32,424 nucleotides of DNA from Mailhella sp. GTDB lineage: Bacteria > Desulfobacterota > Desulfovibrionia > Desulfovibrionales > Desulfovibrionaceae. Shown in pieces: positions 499 to 10,767 of the stretch. Positions within the stretch are counted from its first letter, which is position 1. The number at the start of each line of letters is the position of its first letter. The stretch is from contig JARHYD010000038.1 of assembly GCA_029258655.1 (NCBI GenBank), positions 1 to 32,424 on the forward strand, in the 5' to 3' direction. A program made the translations under genes and the position numbers. The notes beneath the pieces were generated by a model. That model ran no database searches. It worked only from the letters and a program-made list of their open reading frames with translations, and was not told where the DNA came from.

Positions 499-3400
499 TT
501 ATTTTAATACATCTCTAAGGGGAATTTTTTTAAACAATACTCCAACAGAAATAGCAACAACAGTAAAGAAAATAGGAATAAAGAAAATACCTAAAACTGT
601 TGCAGTAATTGTACCAAAAAATACTGCTGTACCAACAGCTTTTTGGCTTGCAGCACCAGCACCAGAAGCGAGTAAAAGAGGAACAACCCCAAGACCAAAA
701 GCCAATGATGTCATAAGAATTGGTCTTAAACGAAGTCTAGCAGCCTCACTTGCAGCAGCTCTTAAACTTTTTCCATCTTTTTCCATAAGTTCTTTTGCAA
801 ATTCAACAACCATAATTGCGTTTTTAGCTGAAAGTCCCATTGTAGCCAAAATACCTACTTGGAAATACACATCATTAGAAAGTCCTGTAATAAATGTACC
901 TAATACAGCACCAAGAACCCCAATAGGAATCATTAGAATAACAGAAAAAGGAATACTCCAACTTTCATAAAGTGCAGCAAGAGCTAAGAAAATAACCAAA
1001 GCAGAAAGAGCTAAAACAATGGTCGTTTGTCCTGCTGTTGCTTTTTCTTCATAACTCATATCAGTCCAACTAATACCAAAACCACCACCAAGTTTTTGGA
1101 CTTCATCTTCCATAATTTTCATAGCTTCCCCAGAACTTACACCGGGAATAGGCTGCCCTTGCAATTCAACAGAAGGCAAACCATTATACCGTTCAAGTAA
1201 AGCAGGACCTTGTTGCCATTGTACTTGAGCGATAGAAGAAAAAGGAACCATTTCTCCCCTATTATTTTTGAAACTTAGATTTTTCAAATCATCAGGGGTC
1301 ATTCTAAAACCCATATCAGCTTGCACATAAACTTTTTTTACACGGCTTCTGTCAATAAAATCATTAACATACGCACCACCAAGCAAAATAGATAAATTTT
1401 GGCTAACATCACCAACAGATAAGCCTAAACTTGTTGCTTTTTGATTATCAAATGTAATGGAATATTGTACGTTATCTTCTTGACCAGTTGCACGAACATA
1501 AGCGATTTTAGGATTTTGAAAAGCTGCAGCCATAAGTTGATTTCGAGCTTCAATAAGTTTTTCATGGCCTAAACCAGCATTATCTTGCAACTCAAGCGTA
1601 AAACCAGAACTTGTACCAAGTTCAATAATTGCTGGTGGAATAAGCACGATAACATTACCACGCAAATCCCCCATAAAGCGTTGACGCATTCTCATAGCAA
1701 TAGCAGCAGCACTACTTTCTTTACTTTTACGTTCTTTCCATGGTTTTAAGGTAATGAAGCTAGCACCAACGTTTTGCCCTGCTGATCCCATACCATACCC
1801 TGCAATTACCATAAGGTCTTTTACATATTCTCCTTCTTCTTCAAGAGCTACCTTTTCAAAATCTTTTAAAACTTCAAGAGTTTGTGCTTGGGTACTATTT
1901 GGAGGAAGATTAACAACAGCTAAAAGCATACCAGAATCTTCTTCTGGTAAGAAACTAGTAGGCAAACTAATATACATACCTAAAAGTCCTACCACAAGCA
2001 CTGCATAAACTATCATCATACGAGTACCACGTCTAAGTAAGTTATTTACTTTATTATGATAACTCTTAGTAAATAAATCAAATTTTCTGTTAAATGAAAC
2101 AAAAAAACGTCCAACTTTTTTATCGTGACTATGTTTTTTCAAAATAGTAGCACAAAGAGCTGGAGTTAAAATCAAAGCAACCATTAAAGACATAACCATT
2201 GCCGTAACAATAGTTACAGAAAATTGTCGATAAATAACCCCAACAGAACCACCTAAAAAAGCCATAGGTAAAAACACGGCACAAAGAACAACAACAATAC
2301 CAATCAATGCACCACTAACCTGATCCATACTTTTTTCAGCAGCTTCAATAGGTCCAAGTCCTTCATCAACCATAATACGCTCAACGTTTTCAACAACAAC
2401 AATAGCATCATCAACTAAAAGACCAATAGCTAAAACCATCGCAAAAAGCGTTAAAGTATTAATAGAAAAACCTAATGCTAATAAAATACCAAATGTTCCA
2501 AGCAAAACAACAGGTACAGCAATAGTTGGAATAATTGTAGCACGAATATTTTGTAAAAAGAGGTACATTACAAGAAATACAAGCACAATAGCTTCAAAAA
2601 GTGTTTTTACCACGTTTTTAACTGATGCAGAAACAGGAGGTGTTGTATCGTATGCAATACCTAATTCTAAATTCTTAGGTAAAAATTTACGTAATTCATC
2701 AAGTTTTTCATTAATAACATTAGCTGTACTTAATGCATTTGCTCCAGAAGCTAAGCTAATACCCATAGCACCAGAATTAGCTCCAGAATAGCGAGCAGCA
2801 GTATTGTAACTAGCACTACCAATTTCAACTCTTGCTATATCGCGTACAAAAACACTTCTTCCCTCAGGATCAACTCGAAGAAGAATTTTTTCAAAATCTT
2901 CAACTGTTTGTAAAAGACTTTGTCCTTTAATTGCAACGTTAATTTGTGCTGTTTTTTCTGCTGGAAGTGAACCTAATTGTCCTGCTACCACTTGCATATT
3001 TTGTGCTTTTATAGCGGCAACAACTTCTGCTGCTGTCATTTTATAATCATGCAATTTTTGTGGATCTAACCAAATACGCATAGCATATTCATCACCAAAA
3101 ACTTGCACACTACCAACACCGGGCAAACGGCTTAACTGGTCTTTAATATTAGCATTCATGTAGTCTGCAAGGTCAACAGAATCCATTGTTCCATCTGTAC
3201 TTCTAATAGCAATAACCATGAGCATATTACTATTACCCTTACTTACATTAATACCTAAACGTTGTACACTTTCTGGTAAAGAAGAAATAGCCGTTTGGAT
3301 TTTATTTTGCACTTGAACTTGAGCAATATCAGAATCAGTACCTTGTGCAAAAGTTACAGTAATAGACGCTCTACCATTGGAATCAGATGTAGAACGCATA

Positions 3401-3630
3401 TAAATTAAATTATCAACACCAGTAATATTTTGTTCTAAAACTTGTGTTACACTTTCTTCTACTGTACTTGCAGATGCACCAAGATAGGTAGCTGAAATTT
3501 GAATACTAGGAGGTGCAACGTTAGGATATTGTGCAACAGGCAAAAGAAAAAGAGATAAACCACCAGCAAGCATGGTAATAATGGCAAGCACCCATGCAAA
3601 AATAGGGTGGTGAATAAAAAATCGTGCCAT
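499..3630 (-). CDS. acrB: RND efflux pump inner-membrane transporter, AcrB/HAE1 type
   Basis: Proton-driven drug exporter of the inner membrane, the pump part of a tripartite RND complex. At 1043 residues it has the standard length of the hydrophobe/amphiphile-1 (HAE1) family. Visible hallmarks are the N-terminal ARFFIHHPIFAWVLAI, the TM4 proton-relay aspartate pair in GLLVDDAIVVVENVERI, the TM10 lysine in GLSAKNAIMVVEFAKEL, and two large periplasmic loops between duplicated 6-TM halves. Its ATG overlaps the stop codon of the upstream adaptor gene as TAATG, with GGGAGG just before it, so translation is probably coupled. A terminator follows at once. No outer-membrane channel gene is present, so it presumably uses a TolC-like protein encoded elsewhere. 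Drug specificity cannot be read from sequence; the symbol denotes family type. Confidence 0.95.
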   Translation of the reverse strand: MARFFIHHPIFAWVLAIITMLAGGLSLFLLPVAQYPNVAPPSIQISATYLGASASTVEESVTQVLEQNITGVDNLIYMRSTSDSNGRASITVTFAQGTDSDIAQVQVQNKIQTAISSLPESVQRLGINVSKGNSNMLMVIAIRSTDGTMDSVDLADYMNANIKDQLSRLPGVGSVQVFGDEYAMRIWLDPQKLHDYKMTAAEVVAAIKAQNMQVVAGQLGSLPAEKTAQINVAIKGQSLLQTVEDFEKILLRVDPEGRSVFVRDIARVEIGSASYNTAARYSGANSGAMGISLASGANALSTANVINEKLDELRKFLPKNLELGIAYDTTPPVSASVKNVVKTLFEAIVLVFLVMYLFLQNIRATIIPTIAVPVVLLGTFGILLALGFSINTLTLFAMVLAIGLLVDDAIVVVENVERIMVDEGLGPIEAAEKSMDQVSGALIGIVVVLCAVFLPMAFLGGSVGVIYRQFSVTIVTAMVMSLMVALILTPALCATILKKHSHDKKVGRFFVSFNRKFDLFTKSYHNKVNNLLRRGTRMMIVYAVLVVGLLGMYISLPTSFLPEEDSGMLLAVVNLPPNSTQAQTLEVLKDFEKVALEEEGEYVKDLMVIAGYGMGSAGQNVGASFITLKPWKERKSKESSAAAIAMRMRQRFMGDLRGNVIVLIPPAIIELGTSSGFTLELQDNAGLGHEKLIEARNQLMAAAFQNPKIAYVRATGQEDNVQYSITFDNQKATSLGLSVGDVSQNLSILLGGAYVNDFIDRSRVKKVYVQADMGFRMTPDDLKNLSFKNNRGEMVPFSSIAQVQWQQGPALLERYNGLPSVELQGQPIPGVSSGEAMKIMEDEVQKLGGGFGISWTDMSYEEKATAGQTTIVLALSALVIFLALAALYESWSIPFSVILMIPIGVLGAVLGTFITGLSNDVYFQVGILATMGLSAKNAIMVVEFAKELMEKDGKSLRAAASEAARLRLRPILMTSLAFGLGVVPLLLASGAGAASQKAVGTAVFFGTITATVLGIFFIPIFFTVVAISVGVLFKKIPLRDVLK

Positions 3631-4946
3631 TATTTATTGCCTCCCTTTTTCACATTTGCTTTATCCTGATCTTTTTCTGTATGAGCATCTTCTTTTTCAA
3701 TAAATTCATTTATGTTACCCTTTGGCTTTACTTGATTTTCACCTAAATAATCTGCATCAGCAGGAATATTTAATTCTGCTGTTTGGATAACATTTATCAT
3801 AGAAGCTTCTGTTACTTTTTGTAAGCCCTCAACAACAATAGTTTCTCCAGATTTTAACCCTTCTAATACCATCCAATTTTCACCATAAGTATCACCAAGT
3901 GTTACATAACGGCGAACAGCTTTTGCTTGAATAGGAGCTTCTTTACTTGGAGTAGATCCAGCTTTATACCCTTCTGCAATAAAAACATAAGGATTTCCAC
4001 GAGTATCACGTACAATAGCTCTTTGTGGCACTAGCATAGCATTTTCTTCTACGCCAACTTCTACTTTAGCACGGATAAATAATCCTGGCATTAGTTGATA
4101 TTCTGAATTAGGAAAAGAAGCACGCAATGTCATTGTTGCTGTACCTGTATCCACACCAATATCAACAAACTCTAATTTACCAATATGGTTATATTCTTTA
4201 CCGTCTTCAAGAAAAAGTTTTACAGGAATATTCAAATCTTGTAATTTTTTCATATCTTCCTGTGCATTTTCACGAGAACGGATTTTAACCAATGTTTCTA
4301 CTGATTCTGTAATATCAACATTCATGGGATCAATTTGATAAATAGTAGAAAGGGCATTCACTTGATTATTAGCAACCAAAGTACCAACAGAAACACTTGA
4401 TTTTCCAATCAATCCACTAATAGGAGCACTTATTTCTGTTCTATCTAAATTAATTTTAGCTGTTTGCAATGCTGCCCGTGCTGCAGCTACCTCTGCATTT
4501 GCCTGTAAATATGCTGCTCGTGCTTCATCATAATCTTGTTGGCTGATAGAATTTTTCTTTCTTAGCATACTCATTCTACTTTCTTTTAAACGAGCAACAT
4601 TCACAGCCGCTTCTGCTCTTGCTAAATTTGCTTTTGCACTATCATAACTTGCTTTATATAATTCATCATCAATATGATAAAGTACATCACCTTTTTTTAC
4701 ATAAGAACCTTCTTGATAGGTTCTTTCACGAATAATTCCCGTAACTTCTGGACGAACTTCTGCTGTTTCAAAAGCCACTGTACGACCTGGCATTTCACTA
4801 TACAAAATTACTGGACGAGCTTTTAATTCTAAAACCCCCACAGGTGCAGCAGGTCTTTGCATTCCTGCTTGTTGATCAGAACCACAAGCAGTAAGGGTAA
4901 GCATTGTAACTCCACATAATAACAAATGCTTAAATTTATAAGACAT
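3630..4946 (-). CDS. acrA: RND efflux periplasmic adaptor lipoprotein, AcrA type
   Basis: Periplasmic membrane-fusion protein linking the RND pump to an outer-membrane channel. The N-terminus is a lipoprotein signal: a hydrophobic stretch ending in the lipobox LTAC, with Cys21 as the expected lipidated residue. A biotinyl-lipoyl-like half (VRPEVTGIIRERTYQEGSYV) is followed by an alpha-hairpin rich in Ala/Arg/Glu (about 95-170), the second lipoyl half (TEISAPISGLIGKSSVSVG), and beta-barrel and membrane-proximal domains. The Lys/Glu-rich C-terminal tail is low complexity. The start is supported by GGAG seven bases upstream. It forms a two-gene operon with acrB, overlapping by one base. No TetR-type repressor gene lies beside it. 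Confidence 0.93.
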   Translation of the reverse strand: MSYKFKHLLLCGVTMLTLTACGSDQQAGMQRPAAPVGVLELKARPVILYSEMPGRTVAFETAEVRPEVTGIIRERTYQEGSYVKKGDVLYHIDDELYKASYDSAKANLARAEAAVNVARLKESRMSMLRKKNSISQQDYDEARAAYLQANAEVAAARAALQTAKINLDRTEISAPISGLIGKSSVSVGTLVANNQVNALSTIYQIDPMNVDITESVETLVKIRSRENAQEDMKKLQDLNIPVKLFLEDGKEYNHIGKLEFVDIGVDTGTATMTLRASFPNSEYQLMPGLFIRAKVEVGVEENAMLVPQRAIVRDTRGNPYVFIAEGYKAGSTPSKEAPIQAKAVRRYVTLGDTYGENWMVLEGLKSGETIVVEGLQKVTEASMINVIQTAELNIPADADYLGENQVKPKGNINEFIEKEDAHTEKDQDKANVKKGGNK

Positions 4947-5019
4947 ACAATTACTCCAATTTTCATTGATTAAAAAAGATCTTAGAGATTTTATTCACTA
5001 ATAGATAAATACAGGAAAT

Positions 5020-5047
5020 ATTATATACGTATTTTTCGTTAAGTCTA
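5020..5047 (-). promoter_or_regulatory. Candidate sigma-70 promoter of acrAB
   Basis: On the minus strand a perfect -10 (TATAAT) sits 16 bases after TAGACT, which matches four of six bases of the -35 consensus. This would give a leader of about 65 bases before acrA. A small palindrome ATACGTAT touches the -10 and could be an operator, but in AT-rich DNA this is weak evidence. Confidence 0.4.
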
Positions 5048-5150
5048 GTTTTTAATAACGTAGCTATTTATTTGATTATTCTATAAAAAAACTATACAAA
5101 AAAATACAAATAATTAGAATAAATTTATACATTAGTTTTATTTTTTCTTT

Positions 5151-5335
5151 GGGGGAAATGATTTCCCCCAAGCCCCCTCAATCAGGCAAATTTTTTTTCT
5201 CAAAAATAAAAATATTCTTTATTTTCACATTGTAACTATAAATATTTTCCAATGCAATTATATTATAAATCTTTTATTTTTACTATCAGAGAACAAAGTT
5301 TAATAATTATAAATAATTTGGAAATACTCCCTAAA
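5151..5335. repeat. Repeat family D copy 2, led by a REP-like palindrome
   Basis: Begins with the perfect palindrome GGGGGAAATGATTTCCCCC (5151-5169), continues with a CCCCCTCAATCAGG segment, then the AT-rich sequence shared with 235-460. Together with the hairpins at 5352-5418 it fills most of the 481-bp gap between the regulator gene and acrA. The rest (4947-5150) holds the acrA promoter region. Confidence 0.65.
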
Positions 5336-5351
5336 TAATAAACGGATAAAA

Positions 5352-5385
5352 AAAAATCTCTTTGAAAATTTTCAAAGAGATTTTT
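5352..5385 (-). terminator. Perfect 34-bp palindrome; terminator for the regulator operon
   Basis: A perfect inverted repeat built on ATCTCTTTGAAA and its complement, flanked by A and T runs, so it could terminate in both directions. It lies 43 bases beyond the stop codon of the minus-strand regulator gene. No plus-strand gene ends nearby, so its main role should be on the minus strand. Confidence 0.75.
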
Positions 5386-5399
5386 AATTGAGGGGGGGT

Positions 5400-5418
5400 G
5401 GGGGAAATCATTTCCCCC
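5400..5418. repeat. REP-like 19-bp palindrome (family A), inverted copy
   Basis: GGGGGAAATCATTTCCCCC, preceded by a TTGAGGGGGGGT head. It is the inverse orientation of the copy at 5151-5169, so the two form an inverted pair about 230 bp apart, as in bacterial interspersed mosaic elements. It lies ten bases past the regulator's stop codon. Confidence 0.7.
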
Positions 5419-5427
5419 ACAAAAAAA

Positions 5428-6990
5428 TTATACTTTTCGTACTGTAAAATGTCGTGGATCAATATTATATTTTTTCACTTTATAATTTACAATCCGATAA
5501 CTACTTTTTAGTATTTTAGCAGCTTTTAAAACATTTCCACTTGCTTTTACAAGAGCATCAACAATCATTTCTTTTTCAAAACGAGTTACAGCATCACCTA
5601 AAGACAAATCATTTTCTGTTGCCGTGCTTTCTGCTGTTTGTAGACTTGGAGGTAAATCACCAGCACGTATAACTTGATCCGAACAGTTTTGTGCTGCCTG
5701 TTCCATACATTTTTGTAATTCTGGAATATTACCAGGCCAATAATAATGTGTAAGAAGTTGTAATGCAGGATAAGAAATACGCTTAACGCTTTTATCTTCT
5801 TGCCCATTATTTTCTTGCTCTGCCACTTGAGCAAGAAAATGTTCTGCTAGTGGAATAATATCTTCTCGCCGTTCACGAAGAGGTGGAACATAAAGACTAT
5901 ATAAATTAAGCCGAACATATAATTCTTTGATAAATTTTCCTTCTTCCACTAATTGTTCAAGAGAAGTAGAAGAGGACGCCACTATTCTAGTATCACAAGA
6001 AAGAGGAGTACCACCTAACCTTGTTACTTCATGTTCTTGTAATAAATGTAATAATGCTTCTTGTGAATCGTGATTTAAATATTCAATACTATCAAGGAAA
6101 ATAGTACCATATTGTGCTTGTTCTAATAAACCTTTTTGAGTTTGCACTGCCCCAGCAAAAACACCTTTTTGATAGCCCACAAGCTCTGCAAGCATTTTTT
6201 CTTCTGGCAATGTTCCCAAATAACAAGTAATAAAAGGCATATCTTTACGCGAACTTGCTTTATGAATACGTCTGGCAAGAAATTCTTTTCCAACACCATT
6301 TTCCCCAACTAGCAATAAAGGAGCACGTCCTTGTGCTAAATGGCTTGCTTGATCTACAATATGCCGCATTACTTTTGAAAAGAGAAAATAATTTCCATCT
6401 TCTTCTTGTGTTATTGTAGTAGCTAAATCAACACGCCATAAACGGGATAATTCTTCTTGTACGTATGCTGCACCATTAGCAATAAGAGAGGCAACAACTT
6501 CTAAAAATAATTTTCGCCATTCAAGATCTTCTTTATCACCGCCCATAGTATCTGCATTAAGAGTGCCTAAAATATCTCGAGCTGTCATAGGATTTGCTTC
6601 AACAGGTGAAAGAACAGGAACAGAAATAAAAGCAAGTTTTTCCATTTCTTCATCAGTCCGATTAAAAAGCAAACTCATAAAATGTTCATCATCTTTTAAT
6701 TTTTCTACAACAATAGATTTTCCAGTGGCAAAAACTTGTCCTGTTACCCCTACACCTGGTGAATATGTTGCTTCATTAACTTCTTGAGCAGAGTAGGAAT
6801 GGCGTAAACGCAACAATCCTGTTTCAGGCTCAAATAAAACAAGATGTGCTCTTAAAAAATTATGTCGTTTAGCAAGAAGTTGCAAAAAAAACTCTAAATT
6901 GGATCGAAAAGAACGTTGAGGTCCAAGATAAGACGCCATTATTCTAAGCGTTTCTAAATAATCAGAAAAATTCTTTGGAGTTTTTACCAT
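5428..6990 (-). CDS. GAF / AAA+ / Fis-HTH regulator related to sigma-54 activators, with degenerate ATPase motifs
   Basis: 520 residues with a GAF-like sensor domain (about 25-175), a central AAA+ domain (about 200-435) and a Fis-type helix-turn-helix (about 478-510), the layout of NifA-like enhancer-binding proteins. Walker A is intact (GENGVGKE, 229-236). Other hallmarks are altered: the GAFTGA loop reads GVFAGA (276-281), Walker B reads FLDS instead of FLDE (298-301), the sensor I Asn region reads ASSS (348-351), the first of the two usual arginines in the FRxDLYYRLN segment is Ile (FIKELYVRLN, 353-362), and sensor II GNVREL reads GNIPEL (420-425). Since the GAFTGA threonine contacts sigma-54, this may be a regulator that no longer activates sigma-54 promoters, or a divergent one. 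It is eight bases downstream of the TPR gene and likely co-transcribed. The ligand and targets are unknown. Confidence 0.85.
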   Translation of the reverse strand: MVKTPKNFSDYLETLRIMASYLGPQRSFRSNLEFFLQLLAKRHNFLRAHLVLFEPETGLLRLRHSYSAQEVNEATYSPGVGVTGQVFATGKSIVVEKLKDDEHFMSLLFNRTDEEMEKLAFISVPVLSPVEANPMTARDILGTLNADTMGGDKEDLEWRKLFLEVVASLIANGAAYVQEELSRLWRVDLATTITQEEDGNYFLFSKVMRHIVDQASHLAQGRAPLLLVGENGVGKEFLARRIHKASSRKDMPFITCYLGTLPEEKMLAELVGYQKGVFAGAVQTQKGLLEQAQYGTIFLDSIEYLNHDSQEALLHLLQEHEVTRLGGTPLSCDTRIVASSSTSLEQLVEEGKFIKELYVRLNLYSLYVPPLRERREDIIPLAEHFLAQVAEQENNGQEDKSVKRISYPALQLLTHYYWPGNIPELQKCMEQAAQNCSDQVIRAGDLPPSLQTAESTATENDLSLGDAVTRFEKEMIVDALVKASGNVLKAAKILKSSYRIVNYKVKKYNIDPRHFTVRKV

Positions 6991-6998
6991 AGAATATC

Positions 6999-7736
6999 CT
7001 ACTTTGATAATTCTTTAATTCTGCTTTGATAAAAAATAACATCAGTTGAATTTACATCTTGAAATAAAGCAATACCGTCTTGATATGCTTTTATTGCTTT
7101 TTCCTTTTGCCCTACTTTTTCAGCAGCCTCACCTAATTGAAAATAAACAACAGATTGCACATCTTTTGGGCAATGTGAAACTATATCTTCATAAATTTTT
7201 ATTGCACTTTCATTATCACCTGTATGCAAATAAAGTGCTGCTGTATTCATTGCTGCAATAAAACCCAATGCAGAATATTTTTCTTGTTTCATTACATAAT
7301 CAAAAGCATTTTTAGCTTTTTCAAAATCATTTTGTAATGTTGCATAACGAGCTATTTCAAGTTCAACTGCCGTAAGCACTTCACTAGGAGCTTTTTCTTT
7401 TAATGCTTCAAGATCAGCAAGAGTTTTTGCCTCATCTTGTTGAGAAATAATAAGTGCTAATTGTTCTTTTGTTTCAACAATAATATTTTCATGGTAACCA
7501 CGATAAAAAGCATAGCCACCAATAATGACAACTAAACCAACTACAATAGCTGCAATTTTAGGTGCATTATCATTAATAAATTGCCATAAAGGAGTTGCTT
7601 CTGGAGAAATTTCTCCTTGCATTTCTTTTAATAAATCTTCAGCAGAACCAGTGTAAGGACTTTGATATGTTTCCTTATCTTTAACAATTTCAGCTTCTTT
7701 TGCTAAAGAATTTTTTTTATTATCTTTTAAAGACAT
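6999..7736 (-). CDS. Membrane-anchored TPR protein, YfgM-like
   Basis: 245 residues. A charged cytoplasmic N-terminus is followed by one membrane segment (IAAIVVGLVVIIGGYAF, about residues 60-80) and a periplasmic helical-repeat domain with TPR-like helices, for example ESAIKIYEDIVSHCPKD and KEKAIKAYQDGI. The layout matches the YfgM / tetratricopeptide-like DUF2133 family, whose E. coli member associates with the SecYEG translocon and the chaperone PpiD. A GTG two codons upstream is also open, but the GAGGAG sequence leaves a proper five-base gap only to the ATG at 7736, so that start is chosen. It is the first gene of a two-gene unit with the GAF regulator. Function by family resemblance only. 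Confidence 0.75.
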   Translation of the reverse strand: MSLKDNKKNSLAKEAEIVKDKETYQSPYTGSAEDLLKEMQGEISPEATPLWQFINDNAPKIAAIVVGLVVIIGGYAFYRGYHENIIVETKEQLALIISQQDEAKTLADLEALKEKAPSEVLTAVELEIARYATLQNDFEKAKNAFDYVMKQEKYSALGFIAAMNTAALYLHTGDNESAIKIYEDIVSHCPKDVQSVVYFQLGEAAEKVGQKEKAIKAYQDGIALFQDVNSTDVIFYQSRIKELSK

Positions 7737-7940
7737 AGCCACTCCTCTAATATTCTTTTGACATTTTTCTTTATAATTTATTTTAATAAAAATAACTTTT
7801 TTGTAAAGTACAATTTACAATATCTTTTTGTATTAGTAAAGAATTTTCCTATAAAGGATATTTAGTATTGCAACTCTTAGTAAATACTTCTATACTAAAA
7901 AAAATTTTTATAACAAACTTGTAAAATAAAGGCTAAAGCT

Positions 7941-9993: not shown

Positions 9994-10767
9994 ATGAAAA
10001 TTTATAAAAACCTTTGCATATATTTTGCAACTATCTGCATAATATCCGCTATTATTACCCTAAGCTTTACGTTTTCACGCTTTGATTTTCTACACATTGC
10101 TTTTTTAAGTGCACCTGTTTCTGTATTTTCTGTGAGTGTAGTTGGTTTTGTAGCAAGTTTTGTTATGTATAAAAGTACACAAACAACTCTTATAGCTTTA
10201 CTAAAGCGTCGTGCTGGTCGTTGTTATGGTGAACTCTTACATCATAAAATGCGTCTTATTGATGTTATTGACGGAAAAAGAAGTTTTGTTGATTTTGAAA
10301 AATATCTTTATCCTCGTGATGCTTTTATTAAAATCAAAAAACTTTTATATGATGAATATTTTGCTCTATTCTCTTATGATCCTTTCATTAAAACAAATAA
10401 ATCTTATAAAGCTGTAACAGATTTTACAAAACTTCATCAAGATTTATTAAATTATATTCGCTCTCAACATATTGATAATATTGAATATAACAACTTCAAA
10501 ATTCTTTATCAAAAAGTATATAAACAACCTATTGTTTCCGATACACCAGAAGAAAACTTCAACCACCCAGAACTTATTGAAGCTATGGAAAATTATCGTT
10601 CTGCTCTTGATTATGCTTTATTAAATGCAGATACTCTTATGAGTTTTATTGATAATCATCTTTACGCCCTTGATGAATATTTTGGAACAGGCGAACCTTG
10701 GTCTGCAATCAAAGAACGTTTTGACCAAGAATTTCAACACTGGGTACAAAATCCTGATGAAGCTTAA
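9994..10767 (+). CDS. Unknown membrane-anchored protein
   Basis: 257 residues, not recognised. Two hydrophobic segments lie near the N-terminus (about 7-27 and 33-58), followed by a basic stretch (LLKRRAGR) that suggests the long C-terminal part is cytoplasmic. That part is rich in aromatic and charged residues (repeated Tyr, Phe, Lys, Asp) and predicted to be mostly helical by eye. No catalytic motif is visible. GGTGAG just before the ATG acts as a ribosome-binding site, and a strong terminator follows, so it may form its own transcript or end the proA-nadD unit (114 bp upstream). Base composition matches its neighbours. Confidence 0.7.
   Translation: MKIYKNLCIYFATICIISAIITLSFTFSRFDFLHIAFLSAPVSVFSVSVVGFVASFVMYKSTQTTLIALLKRRAGRCYGELLHHKMRLIDVIDGKRSFVDFEKYLYPRDAFIKIKKLLYDEYFALFSYDPFIKTNKSYKAVTDFTKLHQDLLNYIRSQHIDNIEYNNFKILYQKVYKQPIVSDTPEENFNHPELIEAMENYRSALDYALLNADTLMSFIDNHLYALDEYFGTGEPWSAIKERFDQEFQHWVQNPDEA

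Follow-up and report, generated by a model that had tools for sequence, protein, structure and literature searches.

In Escherichia coli, TyrR is both a sigma70 repressor and an activator of amino-acid genes. It has no GAFTGA motif (PMC6375630), and EBPs that lack this motif and are active at sigma70 promoters have been documented in Rhodobacter, Caulobacter and Vibrio (PMC10274813). In R. capsulatus NtrC, ATP binding is needed rather than hydrolysis, and in Caulobacter NtrC the Walker B motif is still needed (PMC10274813). In PspF, changes at E108 cripple ATP hydrolysis and T86A blocks engagement of the closed complex, and the E108Q protein still remodels the sigma54 holoenzyme on pre-melted DNA (PMC4132715). 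Because PspF E108Q still remodels, losing only the Walker B Glu is no proof of inactivity. The one-component EBP DVU1949 of Desulfovibrio vulgaris has a predicted regulon of nine operons for nitrogen metabolism and transport (PMC4641369). EBPs that work without sigma54 have so far been scattered, distantly related examples, and their activity at sigma70 promoters is already known; the strength of the present case is that active orthologues can be set beside altered ones at a single locus, in dozens of related genomes and with a near-identical HTH.

The stretch of DNA analysed here (the window, 32,424 nucleotides) encodes such an altered EBP, with the following features.

5428..6990, minus strand: EBP gene, 520 aa, GAF - AAA+ - Fis-type HTH, putative DVU1949 orthologue with altered AAA+ motifs
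6466..6951, minus strand: GAF-like sensor domain, about aa 14-175; weak GAF_2 match, aligns with NifA 9qq6 and Nlh1 4g3k
5878..6378, minus strand: AAA+ core, aa 205-371 (Pfam)
6286..6288, minus strand: Walker A Lys235, kept, as in 34 of 36 altered orthologues
6154..6156, minus strand: Ala279 in place of the GAFTGA Thr
6088..6090, minus strand: Ser301 in place of the Walker B Glu
5929..5931, minus strand: Ile354 in place of the first arginine finger
5722..5724, minus strand: Pro423 in place of the sensor II Arg
5467..5586, minus strand: Fis-type HTH, aa 469-508, SYRIVNYKVKKY, common to canonical orthologues

Pfam matches comprise Sigma54_activat (PF00158, 155.5 bits), an AAA lid, HTH_8 and a weak GAF_2; the same search gave no match to a REC receiver domain, and the N-terminus is GAF-like. 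Set against a canonical sigma54 EBP, the protein has the AAA+ domain and the Fis-type HTH but lacks the GAFTGA Thr, the Walker B Asp-Glu pair and the complete set of two arginine fingers and sensor II Arg. Walker A reads GENGVGKE. GAFTGA has become GVFAGA, and this part of the L1 loop (GxFxGA) is still present in the window's genus. FLDE has become FLDS and GNVREL has become GNIPEL; the arginine-finger segment FRxDLYYRLN reads FIKELYVRLN, with the first Arg replaced by Ile and the second kept. An earlier note on this DNA, which named no strand, described an intact reading frame with GAF domain and HTH, and the 520-aa open reading frame on the minus strand agrees with this. Of the five altered motifs it listed, four read as stated, while the fifth, a change at the sensor I Asn, is not a specific signature, since canonical orthologues mostly carry His at this position (23 of 27). 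The GAFTGA Thr, Walker B Glu, first arginine finger and sensor II Arg are invariant in the 27 canonical orthologues, and their loss is therefore not chance variation. It follows that PF00158 matches need a motif check before they are counted as sigma54 activators. GAFTGA is also missing from two other EBPs encoded in the window's genome, L012 and L013 (contigs C57 and C118 of G000), which read GQEATGINGTIAL and EEESNHRFQRG, and one of them has a Walker B motif changed to YLGE.

Orthologues were sought in 199 genomes of the family, with matches in 172, some of which are not orthologues; many of the genomes compared are MAGs. The nearest matches come from the window's genus, which includes Desulfovibrio sp. 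UBA8003, a MAG assigned to Taurinivorans muris (PMC10507020), and from one sister genus. In both genera every examined orthologue has altered motifs, and in nearly all of them a TPR gene lies directly upstream of the EBP. At the locus of canonical orthologues, the TPR gene is usually followed by iorA and iorB and then by the EBP, with proA and nadD divergent. The two nearest genes of the window's locus are:

6999..7742, minus strand: opening gene of the operon, a TPR_21 protein with a single apparent membrane segment
7941..9197, plus strand: proA (glutamate-5-semialdehyde dehydrogenase), transcribed divergently next to the operon and perhaps a target

The altered set consists of clade A, the window's lineage (20 orthologues, five genera), and clade B (16 orthologues, four genera), and was compared with canonical proteins, 27 orthologues and 13 paralogues. 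Neither the GAFTGA Thr nor the Walker B Glu occurs in any of the 36 altered orthologues (clade A alone: lost in 20/20), and both occur in all 27 canonical ones; together with the finger Arg they are likewise invariant in the 13 paralogues. The first arginine finger is lost in 35/36 altered orthologues, the Walker A Lys is kept in 34/36, and the sensor II Arg is lost in the window's genus. Mean identity of the AAA+ core is 0.81 among active orthologues versus 0.59 in clade A; the GAF domain (0.51 versus 0.60) and the HTH (0.85 versus 0.83) show little or no drop. In clade B (L212-L215, L223-L234), GAFTGA is replaced by GEASKS or GERSKA, Walker B reads FLDD and the order TPR-iorA-iorB-EBP is kept. 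The best EBP tree places the altered forms in two groups, preferring two origins, and the proA tree requires two changes; by the AU test, a single origin is not rejected for the EBP tree (p 0.29).

Several features place the window's EBP in the DVU1949 group: the adjacent TPR gene, the divergent proA-nadD pair, the common HTH, the position in the tree with syntenic orthologues, and a palindrome upstream of its own operon, of which the window copy nearest the TPR gene has an imperfect right arm. From the operon description in PMC4641369, we infer that it is the positional orthologue of DVU1949. No earlier description of altered DVU1949 orthologues was found in the openly accessible literature, subscription literature lying outside the search.

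The surroundings of the gene offer some further observations. The TPR membrane protein had been proposed as the constant partner of the EBP, an idea that we dropped, as the TPR gene stays in genomes that have lost the EBP and so does not encode a dedicated or obligate partner. Downstream of the EBP, after 481 bp, lies an AcrA/AcrB-type efflux pair (window 499-4946), conserved in G039 with an extra open reading frame between pair and EBP; it was rejected as a target, no matching palindrome having been noted in the gap at 4947-5427. Between nadD and the RNase III gene, window positions 9994-10767 encode a 257-aa protein that is 83-88% identical within the genus and has no Pfam or NCBIfam match.

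Two candidate operators lie in the 198-bp gap between the TPR gene and proA:

7793..7806, minus strand: candidate operator 2, TTACAAAAAAGTTA, located at the putative promoter of TPR-EBP; counterparts in G039, G113 and G101
7911..7924, minus strand: candidate operator 1, TTACAAGTTTGTTA, with 16 bp between its end and the proA start; counterparts in G039, G113 and G101

The counterpart of operator 1 in G101 is a perfect palindrome, TTGACAAGTTTGTCAA. Because the pattern, which was chosen after the sites had been seen, occurs only 23 times in the 2.14-Mb genome, two copies within 198 bp are unlikely to arise by chance (about 2e-6). In most canonical and clade A genomes, the palindrome TTGACMTTTYTGTMA lies over the -35 element of a sigma70-like promoter of the TPR operon. 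Of the 19 clade A genomes that could be assessed, with one near-duplicate excluded, 16 have a TKACA-N4-TGTMA palindrome at the TPR-EBP promoter, versus none of the four genomes that kept the TPR gene and lost the EBP (p=0.004). No clear operator was found at the TPR gene of G067, from the window's genus, or of G003 and G006. One genome, G086, was rejected as an EBP-less genome with operators: proA and the RNase III gene of the same locus are also missing there, and an assembly gap is likely. Clade B promoters keep TTTTGACA and have lost the right arm, though the clade B HTH is conserved. The same type of palindrome is found upstream of amtB in several canonical genomes, in some of them with a -24/-12 match downstream of it. 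Palindrome and protein are linked by correlation, through co-occurrence across genomes, which suggests binding.

Genome-wide, the pattern TKACAWNNWTGTMA outnumbers its reversed control 86 to 23 in clade A (15 genomes) and 59 to 27 in canonical genomes, versus 33 to 23 in EBP-less genomes (not significant) and 2 to 3 in clade B; enrichment in clade A relative to EBP-less genomes is significant (p=0.01). The EBP-less G183 has five motif matches, most of them carrying G/C within the core, versus no control match. Sites conserved across the window's genus precede ilvC, agcS, livJ, a gene for a 544-aa glutamate-synthase-like protein and an NhaC-type-antiporter-like gene (named by eye; no model match), and sites in single genomes lie at sstT, a basic amino-acid binding protein gene, ilvE and asd. 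Genes with sites in the sister genus are livJ, an agcS homologue and a diaminopimelate-dehydrogenase-like gene (named by eye), and a site also lies near asd. A search for AmtB came up empty in all six genomes of the window's genus (G000, G039, G067, G086, G101, G113), and neither this genus nor the sister genus gave a GlnA match above the curated cut-off. The prediction for Taurinivorans, a taurine-respiring mouse-gut genus with no AmtB found, is an amino-acid regulon. Two Taurinivorans-type genomes also encode a canonical GAF-EBP (L274:839-2329 and L298:570-2084) with the same palindromes just upstream; judged by the HTH, none of the EBPs recovered for the window's genome was recognised as its counterpart.

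The placement of the sites in the window's genus suggests how they may work. The glutamate-synthase-like gene has three sites at approximately fixed places (-232, -186 and -25 from the start in G039) and, by consensus match, a TTGCNN-17-TATANN promoter in five genomes. The ilvC and livJ sites are each placed some 30-36 bp ahead of a TTGACA element, and the agcS site follows a -10-like element, again by consensus match. A consensus scan upstream of the examined conserved targets found no -24/-12 elements. We therefore infer that the target promoters are of sigma70 type, and the site positions suggest activation at ilvC and livJ and repression at agcS.

Taken together, the EBP is probably a regulator that once had two modes, one at sigma54 and one at sigma70 promoters, and that in the window's lineage kept only the latter. 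The ancestor would have been a one-component nitrogen regulator of the DVU1949 type, which activated ammonium and glutamine genes through sigma54 at the expense of ATP and also acted as a DNA-bound regulator at the sigma70 promoters of its own operon and the glutamate-synthase-like gene. The window's lineage would have lost the sigma54/ATPase mode and retained the DNA-bound one. With Walker A kept, ATP binding probably remains, without hydrolysis, and activity would be governed by a ligand of the GAF domain, perhaps a nitrogen or amino-acid signal. The nearly unchanged HTH would bind TTACAWWWTTGTAA palindromes. Sites over the -35 or downstream of the -10 (own operon, agcS, glutamate-synthase-like gene) would serve repression, and those about 30-36 bp upstream of a TTGACA -35 (ilvC, livJ) may serve activation, much as with TyrR. 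The sigma54 nitrogen targets may have been handed to a canonical paralogue, or lost, which would have freed the DVU1949 descendant from its sigma54 task. Six sister-genus genomes also encode another, canonical EBP of NifA-like type near a glutamine-synthetase match. Sister-genus amtB promoters (L079, L081, L082) retain good -24/-12 elements and carry GATACAAAAAAATATT instead of the DVU1949 palindrome; this is perhaps the site of that paralogue.

It is also conceivable, although we consider it unlikely, that the EBP is a conserved, ATPase-dead protein that controls its own operon or something unseen, and that the palindrome regulon is under a different amino-acid regulator. In G039, G101 and G131 the palindrome also precedes other EBP genes, and paralogues could share it. 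The last helix of L012, an EBP from the window's genome, is somewhat similar (SRSLMQYKLKKYNI), and L012 may bind the same palindromes; clade B has the EBP without the motif. However, the operator at the TPR gene is gone in all four EBP-less genomes, and the published DVU1949 motif, detected at the same operon, led to a nitrogen regulon (PMC4641369).

A role through protein contact, in mixed rings with an active EBP or in competition with one as an anti-activator, seems quite improbable. The AAA+ fold and Walker A are kept, and the window's genome encodes RpoN and many other EBPs. Nevertheless, the HTH is the most conserved part of the protein and points to DNA, and the candidate sites in the window's genus have no adjacent -24/-12 match.

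Continued sigma54 activation with tolerated motif variants is very improbable. RpoN is present, the GxFxGA remnant of the L1 loop persists in the window's genus, and PspF E108Q retains partial remodelling (PMC4132715). Against this, the GAFTGA Thr is missing throughout the altered set, and PspF T86A fails at the closed complex (PMC4132715); the first arginine finger is lost too, as is the sensor II Arg in the window's genus; the conserved sites have no -24/-12 match; and the classic target, AmtB, was not found in the window's genus.

Selection on the gene is strong. Clade A pairwise dN/dS, excluding ratios between orthologues of the window's genus, where dS is saturated, spans 0.039-0.091 over the full gene, with 0.026-0.079 in the AAA+ region and 0-0.023 in the HTH, and pairs of canonical orthologues range from 0.024 to 0.27. 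The clade A gene is thus under strong purifying selection. That it is dying is barely credible: the AAA+ core is less conserved than in active orthologues and some relatives lack the gene, but frames are open in five genera, the HTH is nearly unchanged, and dN/dS together with intact frames rules out decay. The earlier note had already argued against simple decay, and had looked to conserved substitutions with low dN/dS for support; both are found, the Thr and Glu losses in 20/20 clade A orthologues and dN/dS at 0.04-0.09. Canonical orthologues do exist, and the relaxed selection that in their company would have spoken for a dying gene was not seen. Its central proposal, a GAF-bearing DNA-binding regulator without ATP hydrolysis or sigma54 contact, is supported by the motif losses, dN/dS, HTH and candidate operator.

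Beyond the retained sigma70-promoter mode, a broader reading is plausible, if tentative: in two lineages within a single bacterial family, the orthologous group may have exchanged ATP-driven activation through sigma54 for an ATP-locked form of regulation at sigma70 promoters, with HTH and operators kept in the window's lineage, targets moving from ammonium and glutamine to amino-acid synthesis and transport, and class-I-type activation at ilvC and livJ. The DVU1949 series makes it testable, by domain and promoter swaps, how an ATP-driven activator turns into an ordinary regulator.

Among known systems, NifA (TIGR01817; PDB 9qq6) is the best whole-length relative of the EBP, both by sequence model and among solved structures; at 282.9 bits TIGR01817 is the closest curated model, far below its cut-off of 528.85. 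VpsR (PDB 7v2b) has a receiver-type N-terminus and regulates biofilm genes. It resembles the window's protein as an EBP without GAFTGA at sigma70 promoters (PMC10274813), and is a weaker sequence match (116 bits). TyrR differs in its ACT-PAS sensor, and the EBP scores 196.6 bits against the TyrR model, below the cut-off of 576. The NtrC proteins of Rhodobacter capsulatus and Caulobacter are likewise GAFTGA-less nitrogen regulators of the EBP family at sigma70 promoters (PMC10274813); they are, however, two-component REC proteins with L1 deletions, whereas the window's EBP is a one-component protein with a GAF domain, its catalytic set altered throughout by point changes. With the DVU1949 group it shares the locus, the GAF-AAA-HTH architecture, the HTH sequence and a candidate palindrome at its own operon, and it differs from the canonical members in their GAFTGA, FLDE, both arginine fingers, GNxREL and predicted sigma54 targets.
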